This document shows positions 19,465-62,523 of a DNA stretch of 64,000 nucleotides, piece after piece (the first letter of the stretch is position 1; each line of letters starts with the position of its first letter). Location of the stretch: contig JAJYLP010000006.1 of assembly GCA_021787615.1 (NCBI GenBank), positions 1 through 64,000 on the forward strand. Reading direction: 5' to 3'. The translations under genes and the position numbers were made by a program. The notes below the pieces were generated by a model. It was not told the DNA's origin. It did not search any database and saw nothing but the letters and a program-made list of their open reading frames with translations. The DNA is from Pseudomonadota bacterium (lineage in GTDB: Bacteria > Pseudomonadota > Gammaproteobacteria > Steroidobacterales > Steroidobacteraceae).

Positions 19465-20568
19465 TTACGCGCCGGCCATATCGGTCTTCGGCAGCAGATC
19501 GACGTCGCTGACGAGCTTCTGGAAGGGGCGCTTGTCGCTGGCGTACACGTAGGCCTCGTCCGGATCGATCTCCCGCGCGTTCACGGCCGTCAGCAGCGCC
19601 TGATCGAGCAGCTGCATGCCCAGGTCGCGCCCGGTCTGCACCAGGCTCGGGATCTGGAAGGTCTGCTCGGTCTGGATGAGCTTGGCGATCGCGCGCGTCA
19701 TCATCATGATCTCGCACACCGGCCGGCGGCCGCGCCGATCGGGGGTCTTCACCAGCACCTGGGTGATCACCGCGAGCAGGCTCTGGGCGAGGAAACTCTT
19801 GGTCTGCTCGCGCTGCTCGACCGGCAGCGCATCGACGATGCGGTCGACGGTCTTGACCGCGCTGGTGGTGTGCAGCGTGCCGAGCACCAGGTGGCCGGTC
19901 TCCGCCGCGGTCATTGCCATGGAGATGGTCTCGGCATCGCGCATCTCACCGACCAGGATCACGTCCGGATCCTCGCGCAGCGCCGCGCGCACGCCCTCGG
20001 CGAAGCTCGGGATGTGGGTGCCGAGCTCGCGCTGGATGACCTGGCTCATCTTGCTGCGGTGCACCACCTCGATCGGGTCCTCGAGCGTGATGATGTTGAG
20101 TTTGCGCGTCTCGTTGAGCAGGTCGATCATCGCCGCGAGCGTGGTCGACTTGCCGGTGCCGGTCGCGCCGGTGACCAGGACCATGCCCTGGTGGTAGTCA
20201 CAGAGCTTGGCGACCACCGGCGGCAGGCCCATGGTCGCAAGCTGCGGCACCGAGGTGGGGATGGCCCGGAAGGTGGCCCCGATGCCGGTGTCCTTGCGGA
20301 ACACGTTGACGCGGAAGCGCCCGCCCTCGGCCGAAACGTAGGAGAAGTCGAGATCGTTCCCGGCGTTGAACCGCTCCGCCTGCGAGGGCGTGAGGATCTC
20401 CGTGATGTAGCCCTCGAGTTCCGCCCCGCGCAGGTCGCGGAACTTGATCGGCAGCAGGTCGCCCTGCATGCGCAGCATCGGTGGCACCCCGACGGCCAGA
20501 TGCACGTCCGAGCAGCCTTGCTGCACGCCAAGCTTCAAGAAGGCATCGATACGAGCCAAAAGGGGCAC
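19465..20568 (-). CDS. pilT: PilT-family type IV pilus ATPase (first paralogue)
   Basis: A 367-aa retraction-type ATPase. It shows GCSDVHLAVGVPPMLRM at the N terminus, Walker A GATGTGKSTTLA, TLEDPIEVVH, LREDPDVILVGEMRD and GTLHTTSAVKTVDR. The C-terminal tail (about residues 330-367, EAYVYASDKRPFQKLV) is longer than in P. aeruginosa PilT and lacks that protein's usual C-terminal end. No pilus structural or assembly genes are in the window. The order kinase - this gene - second ATPase, all on the minus strand, suggests a regulatory unit. I cannot say which paralogue is the main motor. Confidence 0.87.
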   Translation of the reverse strand: MPLLARIDAFLKLGVQQGCSDVHLAVGVPPMLRMQGDLLPIKFRDLRGAELEGYITEILTPSQAERFNAGNDLDFSYVSAEGGRFRVNVFRKDTGIGATFRAIPTSVPQLATMGLPPVVAKLCDYHQGMVLVTGATGTGKSTTLAAMIDLLNETRKLNIITLEDPIEVVHRSKMSQVIQRELGTHIPSFAEGVRAALREDPDVILVGEMRDAETISMAMTAAETGHLVLGTLHTTSAVKTVDRIVDALPVEQREQTKSFLAQSLLAVITQVLVKTPDRRGRRPVCEIMMMTRAIAKLIQTEQTFQIPSLVQTGRDLGMQLLDQALLTAVNAREIDPDEAYVYASDKRPFQKLVSDVDLLPKTDMAGA

Positions 20569-20692
20569 TCCCGAGCCGAGTCCGAAGCGCTACTTTCGCG
20601 CCGCTTCCCTCACAAAATCAACCGTATGCGCATGAAACCTTGAGCTGCGGCACGTTACCGGGCGCCGGTCCGGCGCACCGCGGCCACCCGGG

Positions 20693-24428: not shown

Positions 24429-24555
24429 GGCGTTGGGGGCTGTCGGATCTGAGGCTGCAAGTGATCGGACGGGTGAGGCCGCGGGCCGCAGCGCGCCCCA
24501 ATGTTGGTGCCGATCAAGAACGGCTGAACTCGTGGCCGATACGGTGTTTGTCGAG

Positions 24556-24569
24556 ATTATCATTAGCGC
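24556..24569 (+). promoter_or_regulatory. candidate -10 element directly before dcd
   Basis: TATCAT at 24558-24563 is followed by six bases and then the dcd ATG at 24570, where transcription would be expected to start. No Shine-Dalgarno sequence is visible, so a leaderless dcd mRNA is possible. No convincing -35 hexamer accompanies it. Confidence 0.25.
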
Positions 24570-25727
24570 ATGAGCATCAAATCGGATAACTGGATCCGCC
24601 GCATGGCGCGCGAGCATGGCATGATCGAGCCGTTCGCGCCCGAACAGGTTCGCTACGTCGATGGTCAAAAGATCGTCTCGTACGGCACATCGAGCTACGG
24701 CTACGACGTGCGTTGTGCGAGCGAGTTCAAGATATTCACCAACATCAACTCGACCATCGTCGATCCGAAGCGTTTCGACGAGAAGAGCTTCGTTAATCTC
24801 GAGGCGAACGTGTGCGTCATCCCGCCCAACTCCTTCGCGCTGGCGCGCACCGTGGAGTATTTCCGGATTCCCCGCACTGTGCTGACCGTTTGCCTCGGGA
24901 AGTCGACGTACGCGCGGTGCTTCCGCGGTGACACGCGTGTTGCGTTGGTGGACGGCGAGGCGCCGACGCTGGAGGACATGGCGCGCCGGCACGATTCCGG
25001 GGAGCTCTTCTGGGGCTACAGCGTAGGTCCGAACGGGCGGATCATCGCGGCTCTTCTGGATTGCCCGCGATACATCGGCCGGGATGCGCTGCTCGAGATC
25101 GAGCTGGATAATGGCGCGCGCATTGAGGCCACCGCGGATCATGAGTTCATGCGCCGCGACGGGCGGCTGGCCGAGGCGCATGCGCTGCGCCCGGGCGATG
25201 CGCTCATGCCGCTGTACCGCGAACTCCTCGGGGGCTGCGCGGCGGTGTATCAGCCGGTGGACGGCCCTGGGCACCTTGCCGGCCGTCTGGCCGGCGAGTC
25301 GACCGCCTCGTGCGGCCTGGACGCGGATGGGCCGGGCGCTCCGCCGCGCCACTTCCCGCCGGCCGTTGCGCATCGGCACGGCACTGCCGCGTACCGCAAT
25401 CACCAGGTCGTCGCGATTCGCGAGTTGCCCGGCGACCACGACGTCTATTGTCTGACCGTGCCTGAAGCCGGCAATTTCGCCCTCCAAGCCGGTGTCTTCG
25501 TCCACAATTGCGGCATCATCGTGAACGTGACGCCCCTGGAGCCGGAGTGGGAAGGGCACGTCACGCTGGAGTTTTCCAACACGACGCCGCTGCCGGCGAA
25601 GATCTACGCCAACGAGGGCGTGGCGCAGATGCTGTTCTTCGAGTCCGACGAGGTGTGCTCGACCTCGTACAAGGATCGCGGCGGGAAATATCAGGGCCAG
25701 CGCGGCGTGACGCTGCCGAAGACCTGA
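24570..25727 (+). CDS. dcd: dCTP deaminase precursor interrupted by an intein
   Basis: The 385-aa open frame encodes dCTP deaminase, which converts dCTP to dUTP for thymidylate synthesis, in two pieces: N-extein residues 1-116 (ending CLGKSTYAR) and C-extein 314-385 (starting CGIIVNVTP). Joined, they give a normal 188-aa Dcd containing the unbroken family motif [16 protein letters not shown] and the catalytic Glu in [12 protein letters not shown]. Residues 117-313 are an intein in frame. The junction falls directly after the active-site Arg, so the unspliced protein should be inactive. The reading frame is clean throughout, with no stop or frameshift. It converges on the DUF3108 gene with 11 bp between. 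Confidence 0.95.
24918..25508 (+). mobile_element. mini-intein in dcd
   Basis: This 197-residue in-frame element has the hallmarks of a class 1 intein. Block A is [10 protein letters not shown] with Cys1. Block B is [11 protein letters not shown], with the T-x-x-H histidine at intein position 75. Block F is NHQVVAI...DVYCLTV. Block G is GVFVHN, with penultimate His and terminal Asn, followed by Cys as the +1 residue. It is too short for a LAGLIDADG endonuclease. Between blocks B and [18 protein letters not shown] resembles the start of HNH-bearing inteins as I recall them, so it may be the remnant of a lost endonuclease. Block F lacks the common His before Asn-Phe (EAGNF). Base composition resembles the host gene. 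Confidence 0.93.
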
Positions 25728-28279: not shown

Positions 28280-29464
28280 ATGCTTGTTCGGATGAGCACT
28301 GCTTTGCGCCGCGTGGGGCGCCTGCTGACGCTGCTGGCCTGCACCGCCGTTCCGGCGCTGTGCCTGGCGAGCCGCGAGGTGCCCGTGTTCACCGTGCCGG
28401 TGGCCGCACAGACCCCCGCGGCGCTGCAGCAGGCGATGCAGGCGGTGCTGGTGCGGGCGACCGGCCACACGAGCGCCGCCACCGATCCGCAGCTCGCCTC
28501 CCTGGTGGCGAACGCCGCGCAGTACGTGCAAGGCTACCAGCACGGCGGCCAGGGTCAGCTGCTGGTGGACTTCAATGCCGCCGCGCTCGCACAGGCCATC
28601 AGCGCTGCGGGACGAAACGTGTGGAACGCCGATCGCCCCTTCACGCTCATCGTGCTCAGTCCGCCGCCCGATGCGTCGCAGCAGGCCACGGACGCTGCGG
28701 CCGTGCAGCAGGCCGCCGAAGCGCGCGCAATGCCGATCAGCGTCGTGCCGCTCGGGGTGCGCGACGCGAACGGCACTCTGCTGCCGTCCGAGACGCTGCT
28801 CGCCATGGTGCACAACCTGGGCGCCGAGCAGCTGCTCATCGGCCGCGAGATGACCCCGCCGTCGAGTCTCGCGCTGCCTGCGCCTTCGCCGGCGGGCGCG
28901 GCAGCGGCACCGGCGCCCGGTTCCGCGCCGGGGGCGACGACGGCCGGCGCCTCTGACGGCGCGACGTCCTCCATGGCCGTGCCGGCGCCGACGGATACCT
29001 GGCGCTGGACGCTGGTGACCCCGTTCCTCACCCGGCAGTTCACCGGCTCGATCACGACGGGCATCGATGCGACCGTGGATCTGCTGGCGCCTCCCATCGA
29101 GGCCTCGCCGGCCGACAGCATCGCCATGACGCCGGTGCGCATCGAAGGTCTCAGGACACTCGACCAGTACGCGCGGGTCGAGACCATGCTCGCGGCGGTG
29201 CCGGGTGTCCGCCACAGCACCGTCGAGCGGATCGCCGGCACGACGGCAGTCTTTGACCTCTGGGCCCGCGGCGGCGCGAGCGCCGTGAGCCGCATGCTGG
29301 CGATCTCACCGCGATTCAAGCCGCTCTTTGCCAACGGCATGCTGGCGTACCAGTACGTACCGGCCCCACCGCCTGCCTCGACCCCGGCCGCCCCGGGCGC
29401 ATCCTCGGCGGGGCAGGCCGATGCGCCGGCCGCCGCGGCGAATCCGGCGGCGCCACCGCCCTGA
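28280..29464 (+). CDS. DUF2066 family exported protein
   Basis: A 394-aa protein with a signal peptide (hydrophobic [16 protein letters not shown]) and a DUF2066-type mature region: [26 protein letters not shown] near residue 40, a low-complexity Ala/Pro/Gly stretch near 205-235, and a conserved C-terminal segment ([16 protein letters not shown]), followed by a Pro/Ala tail. The function is unknown. Its place beside purM and upstream of a CDP-alcohol phosphotransferase and hda matches Pseudomonas. ATG at 28280 has AGGA close by; the ATG at 28292 is an alternative. Confidence 0.85.
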
Positions 29465-34919: not shown

Positions 34920-35689
34920 GCGCCGCGACGCGGCGCGCCCAATACCTCGAAGCCCTCGGCATCGACTGCTGGGTGCCACGGGCGAGCGCGCAGCGGGCGC
35001 AAGAGCCGCGCCCGCAGGCATCCCCAGCGCTGTCCGTGCCCGCCGGCCCGGCGCCGCCCACGGCCTTTTCCCGAGAGGCTGCGGCTGACGCTGATGCGCC
35101 AGCCTGGGAGCGGCTGCGCGAGGAGGTGCGGGGCTGCACCCGCTGCGCGCTGCATGAGACCCGCACCCAGGCGGTCTTCGGCGTGGGCAACCCGCACGCC
35201 GAATGGATGGTGATCGGGGAGGCCCCGGGAGCCGAAGAGGACCGCCGCGGCGAGCCCTTCGTCGGGCGCGCGGGACAGCTGCTCGATGCGATGCTGCGCG
35301 CGCTCGGCCTGTCCCGCGCGACGAACGTCTACATCGCCAATATCTTGAAGAGCCGCCCGCCGGGCAACCGCGATCCGCGGCCCGAGGAGGTCGCCGCGTG
35401 CCTGCCGTACCTGCACCGCCAGATCGCCCTGGTACGCCCGCGGCTGCTGCTGGCGGTCGGGCGGATCGCGGCGCAGAACCTGCTTCAGACCGATGCGCCG
35501 CTCGGCCGGCTGCGCGGCCAGGTGCACCGCTTCGGGGAGCGCAACGTGCCGCTCGTGGTGACGTATCATCCCGCGTATCTGCTGCGCTCCCCTGCGGACA
35601 AGCGCAAGGCATGGGAAGATTTAAAATTCGCCCGTAGCGTATTTGCGCGCACGGCGAACCCCGAAACGAACGATGGCCACCGCTCCTGA
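34916..35689 (+). CDS. uracil-DNA glycosylase, family 4 (Fe-S type), one cluster Cys replaced
   Basis: A 257-aa protein starting with the gammaproteobacterial N terminus ([13 protein letters not shown]), a Pro/Ala linker, then the family 4 core from residue 70: CTRC (Cys74, Cys77), [20 protein letters not shown] with the catalytic region, [13 protein letters not shown], Cys162, and HPAYLL (His218). The iron-sulfur cluster in this family usually has four Cys; the third, normally in KCRPP, is Ser146 here. It removes uracil from DNA. It starts inside the pssA stop and overlaps rimI by 17 bp. Confidence 0.9.
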
Positions 35690-36186: not shown

Positions 36187-37773
36187 ATGACTGACCTGAC
36201 TGCCGAAGTCCGCAGGCGGCGGACGTTTGCCATCATCTCGCACCCTGACGCGGGCAAGACTACCCTCACCGAGAAGCTGCTGCTGTTCGGCGGGGCGATC
36301 CAGATGGCCGGCACCGTCAAGGGCCGCAAGGCCGCCCGCCACGCCACCTCGGACTGGATGCGCCTCGAGCAGCAGCGCGGCATCTCGGTGACCTCCTCGG
36401 TGATGCAGTTCCCCTACGGGCAGTGCGTCGTCAACCTGCTCGACACCCCGGGCCACGAGGACTTCTCCGAGGACACCTACCGCACCCTCACCGCGGTGGA
36501 CTCGGCGCTGATGGTCATAGACTGCGCCAAGGGCGTCGAGGAGCGCACCATCAAGCTGATGGAGGTGTGCCGGCTGCGCGATACGCCCATCATGACTTTC
36601 ATCAATAAGCTCGACCGCGAGGGGCGCGCGCCCATCGACCTGCTCGATGAGATCGATCGGGTGCTCGCCATCCGCACCGCGCCGGTGACCTGGCCGATCG
36701 GCATGGGGCGCGCCCTGCGCGGCATCTATCACCTGCTCGAGGACCGACTGTACGTGTACGCGGCCGGGGAGGCCGGCCGGGTCGGCGAGAACCAGGTGAT
36801 CGAGGGGCTCGCGAGCGAGGCGGCCGAGCGCTTCCTCGGTGCCGATGCGGCCGCGGTGCGCGAGGAGATCGAGCTGGTGCGCGGGGCGAGCGCCGAGTTC
36901 GACCCCGCGGCCTATCGCGCCGGAGCGCAGACGCCCGTGTTCTTCGGCTCCGCGATCAACAACTTCGGGGTCGAGGAGCTGCTCGCGGCCTTCACGCGCT
37001 TCGCGCCGGGGCCGCTGCCGCGCAGCGCGCGCGAGCGGCAGGTCGAGCCGCTGGAGAGCTCCCTCAGCGGCTTCGTGTTCAAGATCCAGGCCAACATGGA
37101 TCCAGGGCATCGCGACCGCATCGCGTTTGTGCGTCTGTGCTCGGGGCGCTACAGCCGCGGCATGCGCCTCTATCACGTGCGGCTCGGCAAGGAGGTGCGC
37201 ATCGCCGATGCGCTCACGTTCATGGCCTCCGAGCGCGAACATGCCGAGGAGGCCTTCGCCGGCGACATCATCGGCCTGCACAACCACGGCACCATCAACA
37301 TCGGCGACACCTTCACGGAGGGTGAGCGGCTGGCATTCACCGGCATCCCGAACTTCGCCCCGGAGATCTTCCGGCGCGCGGTGCTGAAGGATCCGCTGAA
37401 GATGAAGGCGCTGCACAAGGGGCTCGCGCAGCTGTGCGAGGAGGGGGCGACGCAGCTGTTCAAGCCGCTGCGCAACAATGACCTGATCCTCGGGGCGGTT
37501 GGGCCGCTGCAGTTCGAGGTCGTCGCCTTCCGCCTGCAGGACGAGTACGGCGTCAACTGCGTGTTCGAGCCAGTCAACGTCTACACGGTGCGTTGGGTCG
37601 GAAGCGACGATGCGCGCAAGCTCGAGGAGTTCCGCGCGCGCGCCCACGAGCATCTGGCGCTCGATCACAGCGGCGCGCCGGTCTACCTGGCGCCCTCGCG
37701 CGTCAATCTGGAACTGACGCTCGAGCGCTGGCCCGGCATCACCTTCCGCGAGACCCGCGAGCACGCGATCTGA
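36187..37773 (+). CDS. prfC: peptide chain release factor 3
   Basis: A 528-aa translational GTPase that recycles RF1 and RF2 after termination. GTP-binding motifs: [15 protein letters not shown] (G1), the G2 region around [22 protein letters not shown] (G3) and NKLDREGR (G4). Domains II and III follow, to a complete C terminus (ETREHAI). It is the last gene of the pssA-UDG-rimI-prfC run, 13 bp after rimI. Confidence 0.97.
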
Positions 37774-38213
37774 CCCGCGCCGCCCCGCCGTCCGCACAGC
37801 GCGGGCCGCACCGCAAGCCCCGACCCGACGCCCAAACGGCAGCACTGCAGGCACGGTCGTTCGAGGAAATTACGTATTCCACAGGCAGTGGCCTCGGCCT
37901 CACCGTGTGCACTGGAACGGGCGCCGCGCGTAAGGCTGCGCGCATCCGGAAGACAACCTGAAGCGGCGGGTGAGGCCGGATCCGCCCCCGCCGCCCACGG
38001 CCTGCATGCACGGTTGCGCCAGCGAGCGCGGGCGGCCTGACCCAGGGTGGTGGGAACCGCGATGGCTCACCAGCACGCCGCCGCTGCGTGCGCGGATCAC
38101 GGCGCGCCGATCGCCGGCTCCGCAGGGACGCGCACGGTTGTGTGAGGTGGCCGCCGGTCGCTCCTTCGAACACCAACAAACAACCGCTGCGATCGACGAG
38201 GAGGCGAGAGGCC
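37774..38213. other. 440-bp gap with no recognisable gene
   Basis: Between prfC and the sulfotransferase remnant I find no conserved protein, RNA gene or terminator. A few small frames are Arg/Pro-rich and without RBS or conserved motifs. The start of the next gene is preceded by a good AGGAGG at 38199-38204, so the promoter for it presumably lies here. Confidence 0.5.
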
Positions 38214-39446
38214 ATGGGAATGATGCAACGGCAGGCGATGCGGGTCCTGCGGCGCTCGATGCCGCTCGATGCGGACGAGCTGACGGAGACGGCATTGCGC
38301 AACGCCGGCCGCTCGCGCTTCGCCGATGAGTCGTTCAGGCCGGCGCTCGCGCGGCTGCTCGAGGCGCTCGGCGGCGAGGCGCAGCTTGGGGTCTTCGGCC
38401 ACATGGCGGCGCGCTACGACCTGCTGCGCTGCATGCGCAACCTCTTGCGCATGGACAGGGCCGAGGAAGAGGATGCGCGCATCGTTACACGCGCGGTGGG
38501 GCGCCCCATCTTCATCACTGGACTGCCGCGCAGCGGCTCGACCTTCCTGCACTCGCTGCTCGCGCTCGATCCGGCCAACGTCGTGCCGCGCAGCTGGCAG
38601 CTCATCTATCCGTACCCGCTGGCCCGGGCATCGCCCGCAGGCGATCAGCGCCGCGCGCAGGTCGCGCGACAGCTCGCGCTGTTTCGGCTGCTCTCGCCCG
38701 GCCTCGCGCGCATGCACCCGTTGAGCGCCGATGCGCCGCAGGAGTGCACCGACATCACCGGGCACGTATTCCGCAGTCTGCGCTTTGACACCATTTATCG
38801 CATCCTCTCGTACCGCGACTGGCTCGATGAGAGCGGGCACGAGCTCGCCTAGCTCTTCCATCGCCGATTTCTGCGCCACCTCGATGCGCAGGGCCTCGCG
38901 GGCCGGCAGTGGGTGCTGAAAAGCCCGGACCATGTGTTCGCGCTGGAGGCGCTCAGACGGGTCTATCCCGATGCGCCCGTCGTCATGCTGCACCGCGATC
39001 CGCTGAAAGTGCTGGCCTCTGTGGCCCGACTCACCGAGATCCTGCGCCGGCCCTTCACCACGCATCTGCAGCGAGCCGAGATCGGTGAGGAGGTGAGCGA
39101 GCGCTGGGCGCAGGGCGTCGAGCGGATGATGGCGTTCAAGGCCGTCTCGCAGAACGTGCTGCACCTGTATTACCGGGACATCGTCGCCGCGCCGATGCAC
39201 ACCGTGGCGCGACTGTACCGGCACTGCGGACTGACCTTGAGTGCAGCGGCCGAAGCGCGCATGCAGGAGTTTCTGCGCCGCGTGCCCCGCGGCGGCTAAG
39301 CCGTGCATCACCACAGTCTCGAGGCGTTCGGCCTCGAGCCGCTGAAGCTGCGTGAGCAGTTCGCGCGTTACATCAACACGCTCGACGTGCCGCCCGAGCG
39401 TCCGCGGCAGGCCGCGGGCGGCGTGTTCACCGCGAGGCCGGCGTGA
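38214..39446 (+). pseudogene. sulfotransferase family protein, two in-frame stop codons
   Basis: One frame encodes a sulfotransferase of about 410 residues broken by TAG at 38850-38852 and TAA at 39297-39299, with no frameshift. The first part has the PAPS-binding loop FITGLPRSGSTFLHSLLALD. After the TAG it continues LFHRRFLRHLDAQG and WVLKSPDHVFALEALRRVYP, HRDPLKVLASVARL. After the TAA comes HHHSLEAFGLEPLKLREQFA, the expected C-terminal end. The original TGA at 39444-39446 overlaps the GTG start of the next gene, showing the gene was once intact in this place. It is a pseudogene unless both stops are read through. An RBS (AGGAGG) precedes the ATG. Confidence 0.85.
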
Positions 39447-40405
39447 GCCGCGCGAAGCTCTTTGCGTTCGCCTGCGGCCTCGCCGCGCTCGTGGCCGCCG
39501 TCGCCTACGCGGGAACGACCGCCGTCGAGCAGGCGGTGCTGCGCGTGGGAATCGTGGGGCTCGCGCTCGTGGCGCTGATTCACCTGCCGGTCATCGCCGC
39601 AACCGGCTCGGCGTGGTGGCTGATCGGCGCGGAGCTGCCCGGCGCCGCGCCATGGAAGTTCATCTGGGCGCGCTACGTACGGGAGGCCACCGCGGAGGTG
39701 CTCCCATTCTCCCAGCTCGGCGGGATCGTGGCGGGCGCCCGCACGCTCACTCTGACTGGACTCGAGTCCATCCCGGTCGCCGCGACGCTGCTCGCCGATC
39801 TGCTCATCGAGCAGCTCGCCAAACTGCCCTACGTGCTCGCCGGGGTGGCGATGCTGCTGCTTGGGGCGCGGGGCGCGCCGCTGCGACTGATCGCCGCGGC
39901 GCTGCTGCCAGTGTGCGCGATCGCGATCCTCGCGAGCTTCGGGCGCAGGCGCTGCGCGGCGCTGCTGCGCCGCAGCGCCGAGGCGCTTGCGCGCCGGTGG
40001 CCGGCGCTACGCCTGCCGCGCGCCGGGCCGCTCGATCGAATCTTCAAATGGGACCGGCGCACCGCGGCGGCGCTCGCGATGCATACCGCCGCCTGGGCGC
40101 TCGGCGCGGCCGAAACCTGGGTGGTCTGTCATCTGATGGGGCTCGCGGTCAGCCCGGCGCAGGCGCTCATCCTCGACAGCCTGTTCTGCGGGCTGCGGAC
40201 CTTCGGGTTTGCGGTCCCGGCGGCGCTCGGCGTGCAGGAGGCCGGCTATGTGCTGGCCTGTGCGCTCATCGGCGTGCCGGCAGCGCCCGCGGTGGCTCTG
40301 TCGCTGCTGCGCCGGGTGCGCGAGCTGCTCGTCGGCGCCCCGGCGCTCGGTGTCTGGCAGGCCGTGGAGGGCGGACGGGCGCTCGCGGGGCTCTCCGACG
40401 AGTAA
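39443..40405 (+). CDS. lysylphosphatidylglycerol synthase/flippase-like membrane protein
   Basis: A 320-aa polytopic membrane protein of the UPF0104/flippase-like family (the transmembrane part of MprF relatives; HpnL-like). Features are seven to eight hydrophobic segments, ARYVREATAEVLPFSQLGG near residue 75, and the conserved C-terminal GLRTFGFAVPAALGVQEAGY and LRRVRELL. The substrate is unknown; relatives translocate lipids or take part in hopanoid metabolism. It starts with GTG overlapping the old stop of the sulfotransferase, which suggests the two were once co-translated. Confidence 0.82.
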   Translation: MSRAKLFAFACGLAALVAAVAYAGTTAVEQAVLRVGIVGLALVALIHLPVIAATGSAWWLIGAELPGAAPWKFIWARYVREATAEVLPFSQLGGIVAGARTLTLTGLESIPVAATLLADLLIEQLAKLPYVLAGVAMLLLGARGAPLRLIAAALLPVCAIAILASFGRRRCAALLRRSAEALARRWPALRLPRAGPLDRIFKWDRRTAAALAMHTAAWALGAAETWVVCHLMGLAVSPAQALILDSLFCGLRTFGFAVPAALGVQEAGYVLACALIGVPAAPAVALSLLRRVRELLVGAPALGVWQAVEGGRALAGLSDE

Positions 40406-40461
40406 TTGCGCCCGGCAGGTTTGATCGCACTCGTCGGCTCAGGTGCGCGCGGGAGGCGCCG

Positions 40462-41727
40462 ATGACAAGATTCGCGTCACGGTCTGCGCCGCGGGCGGCA
40501 GCTGCCGTGCTTGCCGCTGCGGGCCTCATCGGCGCGGGGCGCGCGGCCGAGCCGTCCCAGCACTCATTCAACTGGCTCGACCCGGCGAGCTGGCCTGCGA
40601 TCCCGGTGCCGAATATCTCGGTCGATCCCACCAACGGCGTGACCGTGGGCCTCATTCCCACCCTCCTGCAGCACGACAGCCGCGGGCGCATCGTGCGGAT
40701 CATCGCCCCGGACATCGTGCATAACGCCGACTTCGGCTGGGGCGGGCACATGCGCATCCTCGACTTTCCGTCCGCCGACCGACAGTGGTCGGTGGTCGCG
40801 GGAGTGATGCAGCACGTGGAGAGCAACCTCGATGCGCTCTACGCCAGCGGCCTGCTGCGCACGCGGCGCTGGTCGCAGCGCACGGAGCTCGACTACGAGC
40901 GCAGCGGCACGGAGCGCTTCTTCGGCATCGGTAACGAGACACCGTACGCGGCGCAGAGCGTTTACACCGTCCAGACGCTGCAGCTGCAGACGCGGCTCGG
41001 ATGGAATCTCACGCACGCCTGGCAGCTGGCCGGCACGCTGATCGTTCAGACGGTCAAGGTGAGCGCCGGCCATCTGCCCGGGATCGTCTCGATCACGAAC
41101 CGCTTCCCGTCCGTGCTCGGCGTCGGCACGACTCACGAGGTGCTCGAGCGAGTCTCCGTGACCTACGATACCCGCAACGACATCACGGTGCCCACGCACG
41201 GCCTCGACGTTGTCGTCTATGGCGGCGCCGCGAGCCGCAACGGGGCGCCCGACGGGTCGTTGTTCACGGAACTCGGGGCGGACGGCCGCTTCTATTGGTC
41301 GCCGACGCGCACGCTCACGATTGCCACGCATTTCGACCTGCGTTACATGCCCTCGCTGCATGACGTACCGTTCTGGGCGCTGAGCAGCATCGGCGGCGAT
41401 CGCAGCGCCGTGGGCGGACCGCAGACGCTGCGCGGCTTCGGCGCAGGGCGGTTCTATGGCCGCGACGCGTTCGTGGCGAATATCGAGTTTCGCCAGAGTG
41501 TGGCCACGCTGAACGCGCTCGGGACGCGTCTCACCCTGCAGGTCGCCCCCTTCTACGACACCGGCCGCGTATTCTCGCGCGCCGCGACGTTTCCGCTCGA
41601 CAAGCTGCACAACGTGCTCGGTGTGGGATTCCGCGGCATCGCGGCGCCGTTCATCGTCGGTTACGTCGACGTCGGCTACGGCAGCGAGAGGGCGGCCGTC
41701 TTCACCGGGATCAACTATCCGTTCTGA
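40462..41727 (+). CDS. BamA/TamA-family (D15-like) outer membrane protein
   Basis: A 421-aa outer membrane beta-barrel protein. It has an N-terminal signal ([17 protein letters not shown]), many alternating-residue strands, the D15-type segment [18 protein letters not shown], the [20 protein letters not shown] turn with RGF, and a terminal Phe (YPF), the BAM-recognition signal. It lacks POTRA domains, so it is a small barrel like other surface antigen (D15)-like proteins; its partner is unknown. A GGGAGG RBS lies directly upstream. Its last four codons overlap the 3' end of valS by 13 bp (convergent). Confidence 0.86.
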
Positions 41728-44542: not shown

Positions 44543-44974
44543 CTACGGGGCGTGCAGCGTGTGCGTCGCCGGCTCGCAGCCGAGCTGCCGATAGGCCCGG
44601 AAGCGGGCGCGGGCGGCCTCGCGCTGCGCCGGCTCGGCAGCGATGATCTCGACGATGCGCTCGGCCGAGGAGGCGACCGGGGGCAGTTCGGGCGATGCGG
44701 CGAGGTTGATGAGCACCCCGACCCCGTCGGCGGGCGGCTCCCCGGCACTCAGCAGCACCGGCGCCTCGCTCCCGGCCCCGAGCCACTCGTGCGGCACGAA
44801 GCTCGCCTCGGCAAAGGTCCACAGCAGCTCATCGAAGCGCGCGAGCTCCTCGCGGTCGGTGTGCCACACGAGCACGCGCTGGCCGGCCCGATACGCCTTC
44901 ATGGCGATGCGGCAGGCGACCTTCAGCCGCGCCGCCGGCGCCGCCTCCTCGAGAACGTAGAAATCCGCCTGCAA
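44543..44974 (-). CDS. holC: DNA polymerase III subunit chi
   Basis: A 143-aa protein of the HolC family, with a Rossmann-like fold: MQADFYVLEE at the start, ACRIAMKAYRAGQRVLVWH, FDELLWTFAEASFVPHEW and VLINLAASPEL. It links the clamp loader to SSB through the psi subunit. It sits between pepA and valS, the classical order in gammaproteobacteria (pepA-holC-valS), and was identified in part from that context. The TGA of pepA is 9 bp upstream. Confidence 0.9.
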   Translation of the reverse strand: MQADFYVLEEAAPAARLKVACRIAMKAYRAGQRVLVWHTDREELARFDELLWTFAEASFVPHEWLGAGSEAPVLLSAGEPPADGVGVLINLAASPELPPVASSAERIVEIIAAEPAQREAARARFRAYRQLGCEPATHTLHAP

Positions 44975-44983
44975 TGCGCCCCT

Positions 44984-46477
44984 CTACACCTTGGCGCGCC
45001 GCAGCAGGAAGTCCGCGAGCAGCGGCGAGGGACGGCCGGTGCTGCCCTTGTGCGCGCCGCTCTGCCAGGCGGTGCCGGCGATGTCGAGGTGCGCCCAGCG
45101 CATGCCGCGGGTGAACTTGCCGAGGAACGCCGCCGCGGTGATGGCCCCGCCGTCGCGGCCGCCGATGTTGGCGAAGTCCGCAAAATTGCTCTTCAGCTGC
45201 TCGGCGTACTCCTCGGTGAGCGGCAGCGGCCAGGCGCGGTCATCGGCGCGCACCCCGGCCTCGATCAGCTCCTGCACCAGCGCCTCGTCGTTGCCGATGG
45301 CGGCCGAGTGATGGTGGCCGAGGGCGATGACGCAGGCGCCGGTGAGGGTCGCCATGTCGATGAGCGCGGCGGGCTTGAAGCGCCGCGCGTAGTGCAGGGC
45401 ATCAGCGAGCACCAGCCGCCCCTCGGCGTCGGTGTTGAGAATCTCCACGGTCTGCCCCGAGGAGCTGGTGACGATATCGCCGGGCTTGACGGCCTTGCCG
45501 TCCGGCATGTTCTCCACCGCCCCGACGATGCCCACGACATGCAGCGGCAGTTTCACCTGCGCGGCGAAGGACAGGGCCGCGAGCACGGCGGCCGCGCCGC
45601 TCATGTCGTACTTCATCTCGTCCATCTCGGCGGCGGGCTTCAGCGAGATGCCGCCGCTGTCGAAGGTGACGCCCTTGCCCACGAGCACCACCGGTGCCTC
45701 ACCGCCCTTGCCGCCCTTGTACTCGAGCACGATCAGCCGCGGCGGCTCGCTGCTGCCCTGCGCGACCGCGAGCAGGCAGCCCATCTTCTCGCGCCGCAGG
45801 GCCCGCTCATCGAGCACCCGTACCCGCAGCGAGCGGTGCTCGCGGGCAAGCCGGCGAGCCTGCTCGGCCAGGTAGCGAGGCGTGCAGATGTTGCCCGGCA
45901 GGTTGCCGAGGTCGCGCTGCAGCGCCGCGGCCTGCGCGAGCGCCTCGCCGTGCGCGAGACCCCGCGCCACCTCGCGTGCCGAGGCGCGCGAGGATGCTTC
46001 GGCGAGCACCCGCGCCAGGGCGGCGGGCTTGGGCTTCTTGCCGGTCTTGAGGTCATTGACGCGATACAATCCCGCGACGGTGAGCTCGGCCACGGCCCGG
46101 CCATAGTAGTAATCGTCGAGCGCCTCGTGATCCGGGCGCTCGAGCGCGAAGGCGGCGCTCTTGACGCCGGTTCGCGTGAGCGCCGCGACGGCGGCCGAGA
46201 CGGCCTTGCGCCAGGACCTGCGCCCGAAGGCCGTGCGCGCACCCAGTCCGGTCAGCAGCACGCGCCGGGCGGCGAGCCCCGGCAGATCCGTCAGCAGCAG
46301 CGTTTCGCCGGCGCGGCCCGGGAAGTCCCCGCGCCCGAGCAGCGTCCCGAGGCGACCGCCGGCCGCCTGGTCGATGCGCCGCGCCGCGGCGGTGAGCTCG
46401 CTTTCCTCGAAAATCCCCACGATCAGGCAATCCACCCCGAGCGTGGTGATGCTCGTGCTCCAGGTCTCGAAACGCAT
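44984..46477 (-). CDS. pepA: leucyl aminopeptidase (cytosol aminopeptidase A)
   Basis: A 497-aa metallo-aminopeptidase of family M17 with the canonical motifs: VGKGVTFDSGGISLKP (Lys, Asp), MDEMKYDMSGAAA (Asp) and NTDAEGRLVLADAL (Asp, Glu, Arg). It is close to E. coli PepA, which also binds DNA in Xer recombination and carAB control. Compared with the other M17 gene at 3392-4933, this is the standard one. It heads pepA-holC-valS and is divergent from lptF. Confidence 0.96.
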   Translation of the reverse strand: MRFETWSTSITTLGVDCLIVGIFEESELTAAARRIDQAAGGRLGTLLGRGDFPGRAGETLLLTDLPGLAARRVLLTGLGARTAFGRRSWRKAVSAAVAALTRTGVKSAAFALERPDHEALDDYYYGRAVAELTVAGLYRVNDLKTGKKPKPAALARVLAEASSRASAREVARGLAHGEALAQAAALQRDLGNLPGNICTPRYLAEQARRLAREHRSLRVRVLDERALRREKMGCLLAVAQGSSEPPRLIVLEYKGGKGGEAPVVLVGKGVTFDSGGISLKPAAEMDEMKYDMSGAAAVLAALSFAAQVKLPLHVVGIVGAVENMPDGKAVKPGDIVTSSSGQTVEILNTDAEGRLVLADALHYARRFKPAALIDMATLTGACVIALGHHHSAAIGNDEALVQELIEAGVRADDRAWPLPLTEEYAEQLKSNFADFANIGGRDGGAITAAAFLGKFTRGMRWAHLDIAGTAWQSGAHKGSTGRPSPLLADFLLRRAKV

Positions 46478-46523
46478 TCCGCTTCTCCCGTATGCCGGCC
46501 ACCGCCGGTGAACCCTGTTTTAT

Positions 46524-46552
46524 GGGTGGCGTCCCATTGAGCTACGCCACCC
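46524..46552. other. perfect 9-bp hairpin resembling a tRNA D-arm, pepA-lptF gap
   Basis: GGGTGGCGT at 46524-46532 and its exact complement ACGCCACCC at 46544-46552 enclose an 11-base loop. On the minus strand the sequence reads GTAGCTCAATGG in the loop region, like the D-arm of a tRNA. No anticodon arm, T-arm or CCA end follows, so it is not a working tRNA. It may be a tRNA-derived remnant, a regulatory hairpin in the 213-bp pepA-lptF gap, or part of an unknown repeat. No gene is seen in the rest of the gap (46478-46690). Confidence 0.45.
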
Positions 46553-53507: not shown

Positions 53508-54110
53508 CTAGCGCGGCAGCCAGCCGCCGCGGTCGGCGCGCGAGCGCCAATACAGCATCATGATGGCCCCGCCCAGCATACCGCCGAGGTGCGCGAAATG
53601 CCCGATGCCGGGCTCGGTGCCGGTGATGCCGAAGAACAGCTCGAGCAGCCCGTACAGCGAGACGAACAGCCACGCGGGCAGCGGGATGGGCGGCAGCAGC
53701 AGCTGCAGCCGCGCGCGCGGGAAGAGCATGGCGAAGGCGAGCAGCACGCCGAACACGCCCCCGGAGGCGCCGATGGTCGGCTCGTGACTGCCGGTGGCGT
53801 GCAGCACGGCGATCTCGGTGAGCGCCGCAGCGATCACGCACACGAAATAATAAAGGAGAAAGCGCCGCGCGCCCCAGTACATCTCGAGGGCCGGGGCAAA
53901 CACGAACAGGCCGAACATGTTGCCGAAGATGTGCCACCAGGTGGCATGCAGGAAGGCGTACGTGACCAGCTGCCAGAGGTGGAAATGCGTTCCGAGCGGA
54001 TAGAGCGCGAAGCGCAGTATGAGCGCGGGCGGCGCGAACTGTTCGAACAGGAAGATCACCACGTTCGCGGCGATCAGGCCGAGCACGGCCGGTGTGAGCG
54101 AGCGGAACAT
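53508..54110 (-). CDS. rhomboid family intramembrane serine protease
   Basis: A 200-aa membrane protein with six predicted spans. Catalytic Ser116 lies in GASGGVFG and His174 in AHLGGMLGG; the oxyanion-side residues sit in HATWWHIFGNM near 55. All key rhomboid motifs are intact, so it should be active. It lies 53 bp upstream of the ABC ATPase gene on the same strand and may be co-transcribed, but a functional link is not evident from sequence. Confidence 0.92.
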   Translation of the reverse strand: MFRSLTPAVLGLIAANVVIFLFEQFAPPALILRFALYPLGTHFHLWQLVTYAFLHATWWHIFGNMFGLFVFAPALEMYWGARRFLLYYFVCVIAAALTEIAVLHATGSHEPTIGASGGVFGVLLAFAMLFPRARLQLLLPPIPLPAWLFVSLYGLLELFFGITGTEPGIGHFAHLGGMLGGAIMMLYWRSRADRGGWLPR

Positions 54111-55068: not shown

Positions 55069-55791
55069 TTACGGTGTCCCGAGGCTCGCCTCGATGCTGC
55101 GCCACAGCACGCTCTTCAGCGTGATCAGCCGCTCGCCGGCAAAGTCCGGCCAGCCCAGCGCCTTCAGCATCAGGGGGCGCGCGCGGCGCACCAGTGTCGC
55201 CTGGCCCATGATGGCGACGGCCCGGATCTGCGCTTGCGGGCCGGTGATCGGCTCCTCGAGGAGGCGGGCGATGATTTCGGTCATCAGTGCCACGAGACGC
55301 CCGCCGATGCGCTGGTAGATCGCCTCGAACGCCTCGTTGTGCTCGGTCTGCGCGCGCGCGAAGAACAGCGCCCAGCTCTCGGGCCGGTCGGTGGCCAGCG
55401 CCTCGAGCAGCGGGTCGAGCAGACTGCGCAGCAGGGCGAGCAGCTGGGCGCGGCTGAGCGGGCCTGCGTGCAGCGCCTCGCGCGCCCGCCCGGCGGCGGG
55501 CTCCAGGCGCACTCGCACGTCCTCGGTGATGTATTCGATGCAGGCCCGGTGCAGCCCCTGCTTGCCGCCGAAGTAGTACTGCAGGGCCGGCAGGCTGACC
55601 TGCGCGCGCTCGGCGATGGCGCGGGTCGAGGCGCCCTGGAAGCCGAGCTGCGCGAACAGCGCGATCGCCGTCTCGAGAATCCGGCGCCGGGTATCTTCGC
55701 CGCAGGCGTAGCCGCGGCGCGGTGCGCGCCGGAGGGGCGCGCGGCGCCGGCCACCCGGGGTTGGCGCGCGGGGCGCGCGCTTGCTGCTCAT
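55069..55791 (-). CDS. TetR family regulator, CecR (DUF1956) type
   Basis: A 240-aa repressor. A basic N-terminal tail precedes a TetR helix-turn-helix (RRRILETAIALFAQLGFQGA, then STRAIAERAQVSLPALQYYF), and the C-terminal part fits the DUF1956/CecR family. In E. coli CecR (YbiH) controls the ybhGFSR exporter; here the matching exporter is directly divergent (55920 on), strongly suggesting it regulates that operon (inference). The ATG at 55791 is chosen; the longer in-frame start at 55836 reaches into the intergenic promoter region. Confidence 0.87.
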   Translation of the reverse strand: MSSKRAPRAPTPGGRRRAPLRRAPRRGYACGEDTRRRILETAIALFAQLGFQGASTRAIAERAQVSLPALQYYFGGKQGLHRACIEYITEDVRVRLEPAAGRAREALHAGPLSRAQLLALLRSLLDPLLEALATDRPESWALFFARAQTEHNEAFEAIYQRIGGRLVALMTEIIARLLEEPITGPQAQIRAVAIMGQATLVRRARPLMLKALGWPDFAGERLITLKSVLWRSIEASLGTP

Positions 55792-55851
55792 CGTGTCCAC
55801 CGTATCAGTCCCGCTCACTCTGCCAGGGTCCGCCATTGCGGTGAATACGAA

Positions 55852-55885
55852 ATACTATCAATTGACAGAAAAGTATCAAGCGACA
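55852..55885. promoter_or_regulatory. candidate operator/promoter between cecR-like gene and exporter operon
   Basis: The 128-bp divergent gap holds a near-perfect direct repeat: TATCAATTGACA at 55856-55867 and TATCAAGCGACA at 55874-55885, 18 bp apart. The first copy contains the palindrome TCAATTGA (55858-55865) and a perfect plus-strand -35 TTGACA at 55862-55867. On the minus strand TTGATA is present. A TetR-type protein could bind here and control both directions. This is sequence inspection only. Confidence 0.4.
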
Positions 55886-55919
55886 CAGAATCCGCGCGGC
55901 CACACACAGGAGTCCGGCA

Positions 55920-56978
55920 GTGAACGAGTCGTCCTCGGAACCGGCGCAAGCGGCGCCGGCGGCAGCGCTGCGCCGCGCTCGGCCCTGGCTGGCTCTCGCC
56001 GTGGGTGTTGTCGTTGCGGCGAGCCTCGGGGCGTGGTGGTACGCGGGCCGACATCACGGTCCTGCCGACATCGTGCTGTACGGCAACGTGGATCTGCGCG
56101 AGGTCGATCTGGCGTTCAATGACAGCGGCCGGATCGACACCGTCGCGGTGCAGGAGGGCGATCGGGTGCACCCGGGAGAGGCACTGGCGCGGCTCGACAC
56201 CAGCCGCATGCGGCCGATGCTCGCGCAGGCCGCGGCACAGGCTGCAGCCGAGCGCGCCGTGCTGGCGCGGCTGCGCCACGGCAGCCGGCCGCAGGAGATC
56301 GCCCAGGCGCGCGCCAACGTGGCGCTGGCGCGCGCGCAGCAGCAACAGGCGCTCGTGCAGTACTCGCGTGTCGCGACCGTGTTTCGCCGTTCCAAGGGCC
56401 GCGCGGTGAGCCGGCAGGATGTCACGGATGCTCAGGCCGCAGCCGCGGTGGCCGTGGCACGCACGCGCGTCGCCCGTGAGGCGCTGCATCTTGCGGTGCT
56501 CGGGCCGCGCCGCGAGGACATCGAGCAGGCGTCTGCGCTGCTCGCGGCTGATGAGGCGCAGGTTGCGCTGCTGCGCCGGGAGCTCGCCGATGCCGTGCTG
56601 CGCGCGCCGCTCGCGGCGGTGGTGCGCACCCGGGTTGCCGAGCCCGGCGACATGGCCTCCCCGCAGCGGACCGTCTTTACCCTGGCGATCACCAACCCGA
56701 AGTGGGTGCGCGCCTACATCCCGGAGACGGATCTCGGCCGCGTCCATCCCGGCATGAAGGCGACTGTGGCGGTGGACGCCTTCCCGCGCCGGCGCTTCCC
56801 CGGCTGGGTGGGGTTCATCTCCTCCGAGGCGCAATTCACGCCAAGGGCGGTCGAGACGCCGCAGCTGCGCACCAGCCTCGTCTACGAGATCCGGGTGTTC
56901 GTGGACGATCCTCACGATGAGCTGCGCCTCGGCATGCCCGCGACGGTGTACCTGATGCCCGGCGGGAAGCGCTCGTGA
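55920..56978 (+). CDS. ybhG: HlyD family periplasmic adaptor of ABC exporter (YbhG-like)
   Basis: A 352-aa membrane fusion protein: one N-terminal span (PWLALAVGVVVAASLGAWW), a biotinyl/lipoyl-like half motif, a helical hairpin (about 95-215) including ARANVALARAQQQQALVQYS, and a beta-barrel domain with ITNPKWVRAYIPETDLGRV. The start is GTG at 55920 with AGGAG at the right distance. It is the first gene of the operon adaptor-ATPase-permease-permease-outer membrane factor. Symbol by analogy to E. coli ybhG. Confidence 0.88.
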   Translation: MNESSSEPAQAAPAAALRRARPWLALAVGVVVAASLGAWWYAGRHHGPADIVLYGNVDLREVDLAFNDSGRIDTVAVQEGDRVHPGEALARLDTSRMRPMLAQAAAQAAAERAVLARLRHGSRPQEIAQARANVALARAQQQQALVQYSRVATVFRRSKGRAVSRQDVTDAQAAAAVAVARTRVAREALHLAVLGPRREDIEQASALLAADEAQVALLRRELADAVLRAPLAAVVRTRVAEPGDMASPQRTVFTLAITNPKWVRAYIPETDLGRVHPGMKATVAVDAFPRRRFPGWVGFISSEAQFTPRAVETPQLRTSLVYEIRVFVDDPHDELRLGMPATVYLMPGGKRS

Positions 56979-59842: not shown

Positions 59843-60961
59843 ATGCTCAACTCGCTCTTGCGCATCGTGGCACTCGCCCGCAAGGAGCTCCTCGCGGTGC
59901 TCAAGGACCGGCGCGCCCTGTTGAGCTTGCTGGTGCCGGTGCTGGTGCAGACCATGGTGTTCGGTTACGCGGCGAGCTACGACCTCAATCGGGTACCGTA
60001 CGTTCTCTGGTCGCGCGATCAGGGCGAGGCGGCTACGGCGCTCATCGCTCGCTTCGACGGCACGGGGATTTTCCAGCGCGTGGCCACGGTCGAGCGCGAG
60101 CGCGAGCTGCGCGCGGCGATCGACGATCGGCGCGCGCTGCTCGCGATCGGCATTCCGGCGGATTTCACGCGGCGGCTGGCCGCGGGGAGCTCCGTCGACG
60201 TGCAGCTGATCGCCGATGGCCGCAATTCCAACACCGCGAGCACCGCGCTCGGTTACGCCCAGACGGTGGTCGGCGCCTTCAATGCGCAATGGCGTGCCGC
60301 GCATGGGGAGTCGGGTCCGCCGGCGCGGCTCACGGCGCGGGCCTGGTACAACCCCAACCTGATCAGCCGCTGGGACATGGTGCCGGGGCTGATCGGCACG
60401 CTGACGCTGCTGCAGACGATGCTGCTCGCGGCGATGTCGGTGGCGCGCGAGCGCGAGCAGGGCACCTTCGATCAGCTGCTGGTGACGCCGATCCGGCCGG
60501 GGGAGATCATGGCCGGCAAGGCGCTGCCGGCGATGCTGATCGGCATCGCGCAGGCGACCGGGGTGCTGCTGGTGGCGCAGTTGTGGTTTCGTATCCCGTT
60601 CGAGGGATCCTTCGCTGTCCTCTACGGTGGACTGGTGGTCTTCGTGCTCGCCGCCGTGGGCATTGGACTGGTACTCTCAGCGTTGTCCTATACGATGCAG
60701 CAGGCGATGCTGTACTCATTCCTGCTGCTGATGCCGTTCACGCTGCTGTCGGGCCTCACCACGCCCATCGCGAACATGCCGCGCGTGCTGCAAGACTTCA
60801 CTCTCATCGACCCGCTGCGCTACGCTATCAACATCGCCCAGCGGGTCTATCTCGAGGGCGCGGGCGTGAAGCTGTTGCTGCCCGAACTGTGGCCGCTGGC
60901 GCTGATCGCGACGGTCACGCTGAGCGCCGCGTCCTGGATGTTTCGTCACCGCCTGCAATGA
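59843..60961 (+). CDS. ybhR: ABC-2 type permease (YbhR-like)
   Basis: A 372-aa permease paralogous to the preceding one, with the same topology: VAREREQGTFDQLLVTPIR in the coupling region, MLYSFLLLMPFTLLSGLTTP and LRYAINIAQRVYLEGA near the end. The two permeases probably form the heterodimeric channel. Its stop overlaps an in-frame ATG of the following outer membrane factor gene. Confidence 0.9.
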   Translation: MLNSLLRIVALARKELLAVLKDRRALLSLLVPVLVQTMVFGYAASYDLNRVPYVLWSRDQGEAATALIARFDGTGIFQRVATVERERELRAAIDDRRALLAIGIPADFTRRLAAGSSVDVQLIADGRNSNTASTALGYAQTVVGAFNAQWRAAHGESGPPARLTARAWYNPNLISRWDMVPGLIGTLTLLQTMLLAAMSVAREREQGTFDQLLVTPIRPGEIMAGKALPAMLIGIAQATGVLLVAQLWFRIPFEGSFAVLYGGLVVFVLAAVGIGLVLSALSYTMQQAMLYSFLLLMPFTLLSGLTTPIANMPRVLQDFTLIDPLRYAINIAQRVYLEGAGVKLLLPELWPLALIATVTLSAASWMFRHRLQ

Positions 60962-60990
60962 CCGTCGTGATGCTGAATAGGGAATTGCGT

Positions 60991-62523
60991 ATGCCCCGCC
61001 TGATGTCCAACCGCTCGGCTCGCTGGCTCGCCGCCGGCGCCGTGCTTGTGCTCGGCGGCTGCGCCGTCGGCCCGAACTTCGTCAAGCCGAAGGCGCAGGT
61101 TCCGGCGCAGTGGTCCGCGACCGCGCGGCGCAACGGCTCGGAGGGCGCCTCGCACGTGAGCACGGGCGAGGCCCCGAGCGTCGCATGGTGGTCGGATTTC
61201 CACGATCCGCTGCTCACCTCTCTGGTGCGCCAGTCGGCGCGACAGAACCTCGATGTGCGCGAGGCTGCGCTGCGCATCCGCGAGGCCGAGACGCAGGCCC
61301 AGGCGCTCTCCGGAGCGCTCTGGCCCAGTGTCTCGGCCAACGCCGCATGGAGCCGCCAGCGCATCAGCACGAACACACCGAACGGCTTTCTCTTCAGCGG
61401 CAAGTTTCCCGGACTGCCGCCGAGCATCACCAACCCCTACAACCAGTACCAGCTCGGTCTCGGCGTGTCCTGGGGGCTCGACCTGTTCGGCGGCACCCGG
61501 CGGGCGATCGAGGCGGCCAACGCCACGACCCGCGCAGCGGTGTTCGACGCCCGCGGCGTCGTGCTCAGCATGGTGAGCGACGTGGCGCAGACCTACATCG
61601 AGCTGCGCGGCGCGCAGCTGCGCCAGGCCATTCTCAAGCGCACGCTGCGCACCCAGCACGATCTGCTGCAGCTGACGCAGGACCGTTACGATGCGGGACT
61701 GACTTCGGATCTGGACGTGCAGAATGCGGCCACCGAACTCAATACGACGCGCGCGCAGCTGCCGCTCGCCGATGAGCAGGTCACGCTCGACATCAATCAG
61801 CTGAGCAAGCTCATGGCGCGTCAGCCCGAGGCGCTGCGCGCCGAGCTGGTGCGCGCCCGGCCGGTGCCGCCGGTGCCGCCGGTGGTGCCGATCGGCCTGC
61901 CCTCGGATCTGCTGCGCCGCCGGCCGGACATCCGCGCCGCGGAAGCCAACCTGCACGCGGCCACGGCCGAGATCGGCGTGGCGGTCTCGGAGTACTTTCC
62001 GCGCATCACGCTCACGGCCGGGGGCGGCTACCAGTCCGAGGGGCTGAGTCAGCTGCTTCAGACGGCGAGCCACTTCGCCTCGTTCGGCCCCGCGATCGAG
62101 TTGCCGATCTTCGAGGGCGGGCGGATCCGCGCGACGGTGCGGCTGCGGCGCCTGCAGGCCAAGCAGGCCGCGGTCGAGTACGCGCGCACGGTGCTGAACG
62201 CCCTGAACCAGGTGGAGGATACGCTGGCGGCCTACGGGGCCGATCAGCGCCAGCGCGTCTCGCTCGAGGCGGCGGTCAAGACCAGCCGCAACGCGCTCGC
62301 GCTGGCGCGCCAGCGCTACGAGAGCGGCGTTGCCAACTTCATCGTGGTGCTCGACGCCGAGCGCACCGAGCAGCAGACCGAGCTCGCCCTGGCGAGCGCC
62401 ACCACCGCGGTCTCGCTTGATCTGGTGCGCCTGTACAAGGCGCTCGGCGGGGGTTGGCAGCGCCAGGGCCTCGCGAGCGCCGCGACCGGCGGGCCGGGCG
62501 CGCACGGCGCAATGCATGATTGA
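60991..62523 (+). CDS. NodT-family outer membrane factor lipoprotein
   Basis: A 510-aa TolC-like efflux protein. The N-terminal signal ends in the lipobox LGGC (Cys24 from this start) followed by AVGPNFVKP, typical of NodT lipoproteins. Two OEP repeats follow: VREAALRIREAETQAQALSG, GLDLFGGTRRAIEAANA and RRRPDIRAAEANLHAATAEIG, then LARQRYESGVANFIVVLDAER. An AGGGA RBS precedes the ATG at 60991; an in-frame ATG at 60958 overlapping the ybhR stop is possible. E. coli ybhGFSR has no such partner; here the exporter brings its own outer membrane channel. Confidence 0.9.
   Translation: MPRLMSNRSARWLAAGAVLVLGGCAVGPNFVKPKAQVPAQWSATARRNGSEGASHVSTGEAPSVAWWSDFHDPLLTSLVRQSARQNLDVREAALRIREAETQAQALSGALWPSVSANAAWSRQRISTNTPNGFLFSGKFPGLPPSITNPYNQYQLGLGVSWGLDLFGGTRRAIEAANATTRAAVFDARGVVLSMVSDVAQTYIELRGAQLRQAILKRTLRTQHDLLQLTQDRYDAGLTSDLDVQNAATELNTTRAQLPLADEQVTLDINQLSKLMARQPEALRAELVRARPVPPVPPVVPIGLPSDLLRRRPDIRAAEANLHAATAEIGVAVSEYFPRITLTAGGGYQSEGLSQLLQTASHFASFGPAIELPIFEGGRIRATVRLRRLQAKQAAVEYARTVLNALNQVEDTLAAYGADQRQRVSLEAAVKTSRNALALARQRYESGVANFIVVLDAERTEQQTELALASATTAVSLDLVRLYKALGGGWQRQGLASAATGGPGAHGAMHD

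Follow-up and report, generated by a model that had tools for sequence, protein, structure and literature searches.

Two in-frame stop codons point to a probable recent sulfotransferase gene loss beside an intact HpnL-like gene

Young strain-specific pseudogenes have been described in Salmonella, where 346 of 378 curated pseudogenes carry one inactivating mutation and 32 carry more; premature stops account for 131 of the 346 single-mutation pseudogenes, and the majority have diverged with little acceleration or none (Kuo and Ochman 2010, PMC2916853). The sulfotransferase gene reported here shares with them a premature stop removing more than 20% of the frame, conserved flanks, absence from relatives and a divergence that is barely accelerated. 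It differs in carrying two inactivating mutations where one is usual, and in lying in an uncultured draft genome that is compared above the strain level. Within the Sulfotransfer_3 family (PF13469), this gene stands apart in being interrupted twice, and a full-length product is not expected. The gene downstream resembles HpnL (TIGR03476), in that it passes the family cut-off and the genome has a squalene-hopene cyclase gene; it differs in being a second copy beside a sulfotransferase, whereas the other homologue (G000:C18:36151-37083) shares a contig with the cyclase gene. HpnL itself is described as a protein whose function is not established (PMC12583986). A literature query on sulfotransferases together with hopanoids gave no relevant title among the matches listed.

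The window, meaning the whole stretch of 64,000 bases that was analysed, spans positions 1-64000 of its contig, which is 74,088 bases long and belongs to a draft assembly of 3.73 Mb in 176 contigs with a completeness of 99.69. The initial annotation had placed a TAG and a TAA within a coherent sulfotransferase frame free of frameshifts, with the ancestral TGA overlapping the GTG start of the next gene, and each of these statements is exact in coordinate, frame and stop type (Table 1). Two of the three pieces into which the stops divide the frame match Sulfotransfer_3 well above its cut-off of 27 bits: piece 1 scores 59.5 bits over profile positions 1-104, and piece 2 scores 93.5 bits over positions 99-214. 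The family match thus carries on in frame past the first stop, and the two pieces jointly span positions 1-214 of the 216 in the profile. Piece 3 (48 aa) has no match of its own in the Pfam search, but its alignment with L002, the closest relative, is at 96%. The gene therefore scores as a member of the family by the curated cut-off, and it is not a single uninterrupted coding frame. No insertion or deletion was found over 1230 bases compared with either of the relatives G141 and G102. The one-base step from the TGA to the next gene is repeated in L002 (1414) and L005 (6588). A GAGG at 39434-39437 may serve the HpnL-like gene as its own ribosome-binding site.

Table 1. Features at and around the interrupted sulfotransferase frame (window coordinates)
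Feature	Position	Strand	Remark
prfC (release factor RF3)	36187..37773	+	upstream neighbour, outside the feature
GAGGAGG, likely ribosome-binding site of the sulfotransferase frame	38198..38204	+	inferred from sequence only
Interrupted Sulfotransfer_3 frame	38214..39446	+	410 codons and final TGA; start matches open copies of relatives
Stop 1, TAG, codon 213	38850..38852	+	212 of 410 residues remain
Stop 2, TAA, codon 362	39297..39299	+	
Ancestral stop TGA	39444..39446	+	overlaps GTG start (39443-39445) of HpnL-like gene
HpnL-like membrane protein gene	39443..40405	+	GTG start, intact; TIGR03476 205.8 bits (cut-off 195.65); PF03706
Omp85-domain outer-membrane protein gene	40405..41727	+	start approximate
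Frames with a stop near start or end	140-1104, 19465-20633, 24483-25727, 44984-46549, 53509-54110, 55069-55999		

The gene is present in 27 of 58 genomes of the genus at E <= 1e-80, the window's own included, and the window's copy is the only one with in-frame stops (0/26 among the others). Twenty-five of the 26 are open over almost their full length, at the same place, and the remaining one, in G134, is independently truncated. The nearest copies are L002 of G141 (94% over the frame), L003 of G102 and L005 of G018. At the site of stop 1 all 26 relatives have Tyr; at stop 2 there are 16 with Tyr, 8 with His and 2 with Arg, a column that is less certain in the distant copies, which align at only 46-52% identity. 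In a set of 17 relative loci, which overlaps with the genus set, no copy has a stop at either site. An intact orthologue ending at the first stop, which by the initial annotation would refute the interruption, was sought and not found; none of the 26 terminates at either site, and the short product is thus not an ancestral form. Apparent stops in L027, L028, L031, L033 and L038 are terminal stops within the reported match range, and that in L047 occupies codon 1 of the match, ahead of the start; there is therefore no recurrent stop in this gene.

The frame shows the constraint of its neighbours. Pairwise dN/dS is 0.25 between the window and G141, and 0.26 between the intact copies of G141 and G102. 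On the window branch, set against G102 and polarised by G018, there are 7 missense, 17 synonymous and 2 nonsense changes over 401 codons compared, while the G102 branch has 11 missense and 13 synonymous changes. In 23 other genes of the contig, hand-picked mainly from open frames (9,076 codons compared, 117 gapped codons excluded), missense to synonymous changes stand at 125:317 on the window branch and 134:272 on the G102 branch, and the sulfotransferase does not differ from the former (7:17 against 125:317; Fisher p = 1.0). A three-way count, also polarised with G018, assigns 6 missense, 8 synonymous and 2 nonsense changes to the window alone, similar to the 10:16 of the two sister branches (Fisher p = 1.0). 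The relaxed constraint that is expected in old, not young, pseudogenes is thus not seen here, and the gene, if it is a pseudogene, is young by its neighbour-like ratio: if dead, it died recently. The 23 genes contain no internal stop, a result that is partly by construction, because most gene borders were taken from open frames of the window; nine stops flagged in the window's copies are the terminal codons of minus-strand genes whose ranges included them, and a 'stop' of G102 in the gene at 44543-44974 concerns its last codons, beyond the alignment coverage.

We propose that the sulfotransferase probably underwent recent nonsense inactivation and is a very young unitary pseudogene, a reading drawn from sequence comparison. 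Between the recent loss and the readthrough that the initial annotation had put forward, loss fits best, with 25 of 26 other copies open, no excess of amino-acid changes and no sign of a changed code. The product of the gene would once have been a PAPS-type sulfotransferase, produced jointly with the HpnL-like membrane protein, and with the Omp85-domain protein as well in the nearest species. Two separate point mutations would then have created the TAG and the TAA from sense codons that read Tyr in the nearest relatives. Translation would halt at the TAG past the GLPRSGSTF loop, which we take to be the 5'-phosphosulfate-binding loop, and ahead of the HRDP segment, presumably a functional motif; with that segment beyond the stop, no active enzyme would be expected. 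The downstream gene, with its own plausible ribosome-binding site, remains intact. The stops, the frame, the open copies of the relatives and the absence of decay are observed; we infer the loss of enzyme activity, its fixation in the strain and the order of the two mutations.

Two inactivating changes without other decay strain this model mildly and do not contradict it. Of all random single changes to the gene, 2.2-2.5% create a stop, and the probability of a second stop is about 0.07 within 3 neutral changes, 0.11 within 5, 0.20-0.22 within 10 and 0.38 within 20. That both stops fall on ancestral Tyr codons has a chance of 0.04-0.07 (the squared Tyr shares 0.188 and 0.261). The lack of decay, for its part, is also expected from a working gene or a consensus error.

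The alternative that survives best, although unlikely, is that the gene is intact and that one or both codons are wrong in the assembly or its consensus, or that co-existing strains were merged there into a chimaeric consensus. A draft in 176 contigs whose named relatives are metagenome bins may have low local coverage, and nothing around the stops has decayed. Against this, amino-acid changes are not in excess on the window branch compared with the G102 branch in the 23 genes, the sulfotransferase has no frameshift, and at such a low error level two random errors that both create stops in one gene would be improbable.

Functional readthrough is very improbable. Both stops would have to be decoded, with Tyr inserted perhaps by a suppressor tRNA, to yield the full-length enzyme. 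This reading would suit the Tyr of the nearest relatives at both sites and a frame that appears constrained throughout, including behind the stops, but this constraint is mostly history common to the open copies. The release factors RF1 and RF2 are intact (prfA 516.2 bits, prfB 498.7 bits, both above cut-off and with no stops inside). A covariance search found 40 tRNA places, 39 of them above cut-off, and ARAGORN called 39 tRNA genes at those places; none of the 39 has a stop-reading anticodon, and the lone tRNA-Tyr is GTA. Since tRNA-His is also missing, this set is incomplete, and a suppressor could have been missed. The genome has a second tRNA-Cys (GCA) at L119:308-396 (G000:C21:22707-22795), 89 bases long with a long variable arm, which a DNA search matched in 4 of 58 genus genomes, at full length only in the window's genome and G165; tRNA-Cys genes that resemble selenocysteine tRNA are treated in a review (PMC7609411).

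Ordinary genes use the same stops: among 31 genes of the window the terminal codon is TGA in 22, TAG in 5 and TAA in 4; a 32nd gene was left out because its end coordinate was faulty. A less biased look than the hand-picked 23 genes came from 60 open frames of G018 mapped on the contig, 12 of which, the sulfotransferase and 11 others, contain a stop in the window's version. Six of the 11 stops precede the window's start codon or hit the last residues (Table 1); at 140-1104 the first 37 residues align in another frame too, which either a changed start or a frameshift would fit. Four others (28537-29154, 34948-35367, 40129-40815 and 60915-61571) lie on the opposite strand or straddle borders, and compete with better-conserved open frames or with two known genes, by a small margin of conservation at 34948-35367 and 28537-29154. 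The eleventh, at G000:C129 71788-72278 of the contig (L078), is a minus-strand frame and a candidate gene; it is open over 161 codons in G018, whereas the window's genome shows a stop there together with a change of frame. With this stretch set aside, the sulfotransferase alone has clear internal stops. Stop-codon reassignment thus appears unsupported, with release factors unaltered and stops that do not serve as sense codons in many genes.

Programmed recoding had been judged unlikely from the two different stop types, and we agree: a programmed stop and its context should be conserved, and neither stop occurs in any of the 26 relatives. With two different stops in series and a context that is not conserved, readthrough to useful levels would be unlikely. 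The particular proposal that UAG and UAA are both decoded, with a suppressor tRNA-Tyr, absent from the incomplete set, plausibly inserting Tyr, is more doubtful still; if true, it would account for stops at ancestral Tyr codons and for a frame without decay. A Tyr-specific signal was considered and rejected, the coincidence being only mildly unlikely and 10 of 26 relatives being non-Tyr at site 2. Among the literature matches for pseudogene in-frame stops at tyrosine codons, only engineered E. coli appeared. It is scarcely probable that the pieces act as separate proteins, the N-terminal 212 aa and a re-initiated middle (for example from the GTG at 38913, 128 aa) associating or taking new roles, for although each retains its family segment and an open frame at 38913-39299 exists behind stop 1, no genus relative has a split gene, that GTG lies within the conserved segment WVLKSPDH, and no special gene arrangement lends support.

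Recent nonsense inactivation remains the preferred reading. In all 26 genus relatives the HpnL-like gene lies downstream of the sulfotransferase and is read on the same strand (21 loci, L050-L070, with L023, L024, L002, L003 and L005); it runs off the contig end in L054 and L007. In another genus of the family (G117), the L022 stretch examined gave no HpnL-like match. Because of this constant neighbour and the squalene-hopene cyclase in the genome, a sulfated envelope lipid or glycolipid can be named as the enzyme's product, as a guess only. Six more Sulfotransfer_3 genes occur in the genome, and the stretches matched in them contain no internal stop.

The truncated copy of G134 (L070) offers a second case. 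Where its alignment with the intact copy L010 breaks, 678 bases in L010 stand against 48 in L070, and the missing part is N-terminal and includes the 5' binding loop. L013 is 99.6% identical to L070, and L012 is 98% identical to L013. The rest of the G134 copy has 25 missense and 5 synonymous changes against L010 (230 codons; 23 ambiguous excluded), which differs from the window's 7:17 (p = 8e-5) and from its 6:8 (p = 0.012). Its HpnL-like neighbour, at 2 missense to 14 synonymous, is still constrained; the enzyme was thus dispensable at least once, while the partner was kept. Many of the changes in the truncated copies L070, L012 and L013 are L>P, Q>R, D>G and Y>C. The intact L010 and the truncated L013 are both filed under bin TL2-1.bin3, which probably holds two species; L060 of G135, a genome with 6% contamination, is identical to L010.

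The probable loss in the window is an ordinary event, one more young bacterial gene loss, and carries little weight alone. Its value lies in two snapshots of the same sulfotransferase lost twice in one genus: the loss is fresh in the window's lineage, whereas in G134 it is older and the remnant is freely decaying, and the HpnL-like partner is intact both times. That the partner persists through both losses suggests that the HpnL-like membrane protein has a role for which the sulfotransferase is not needed. This independent role is a small, testable point on hopanoid-associated genes of unknown function.
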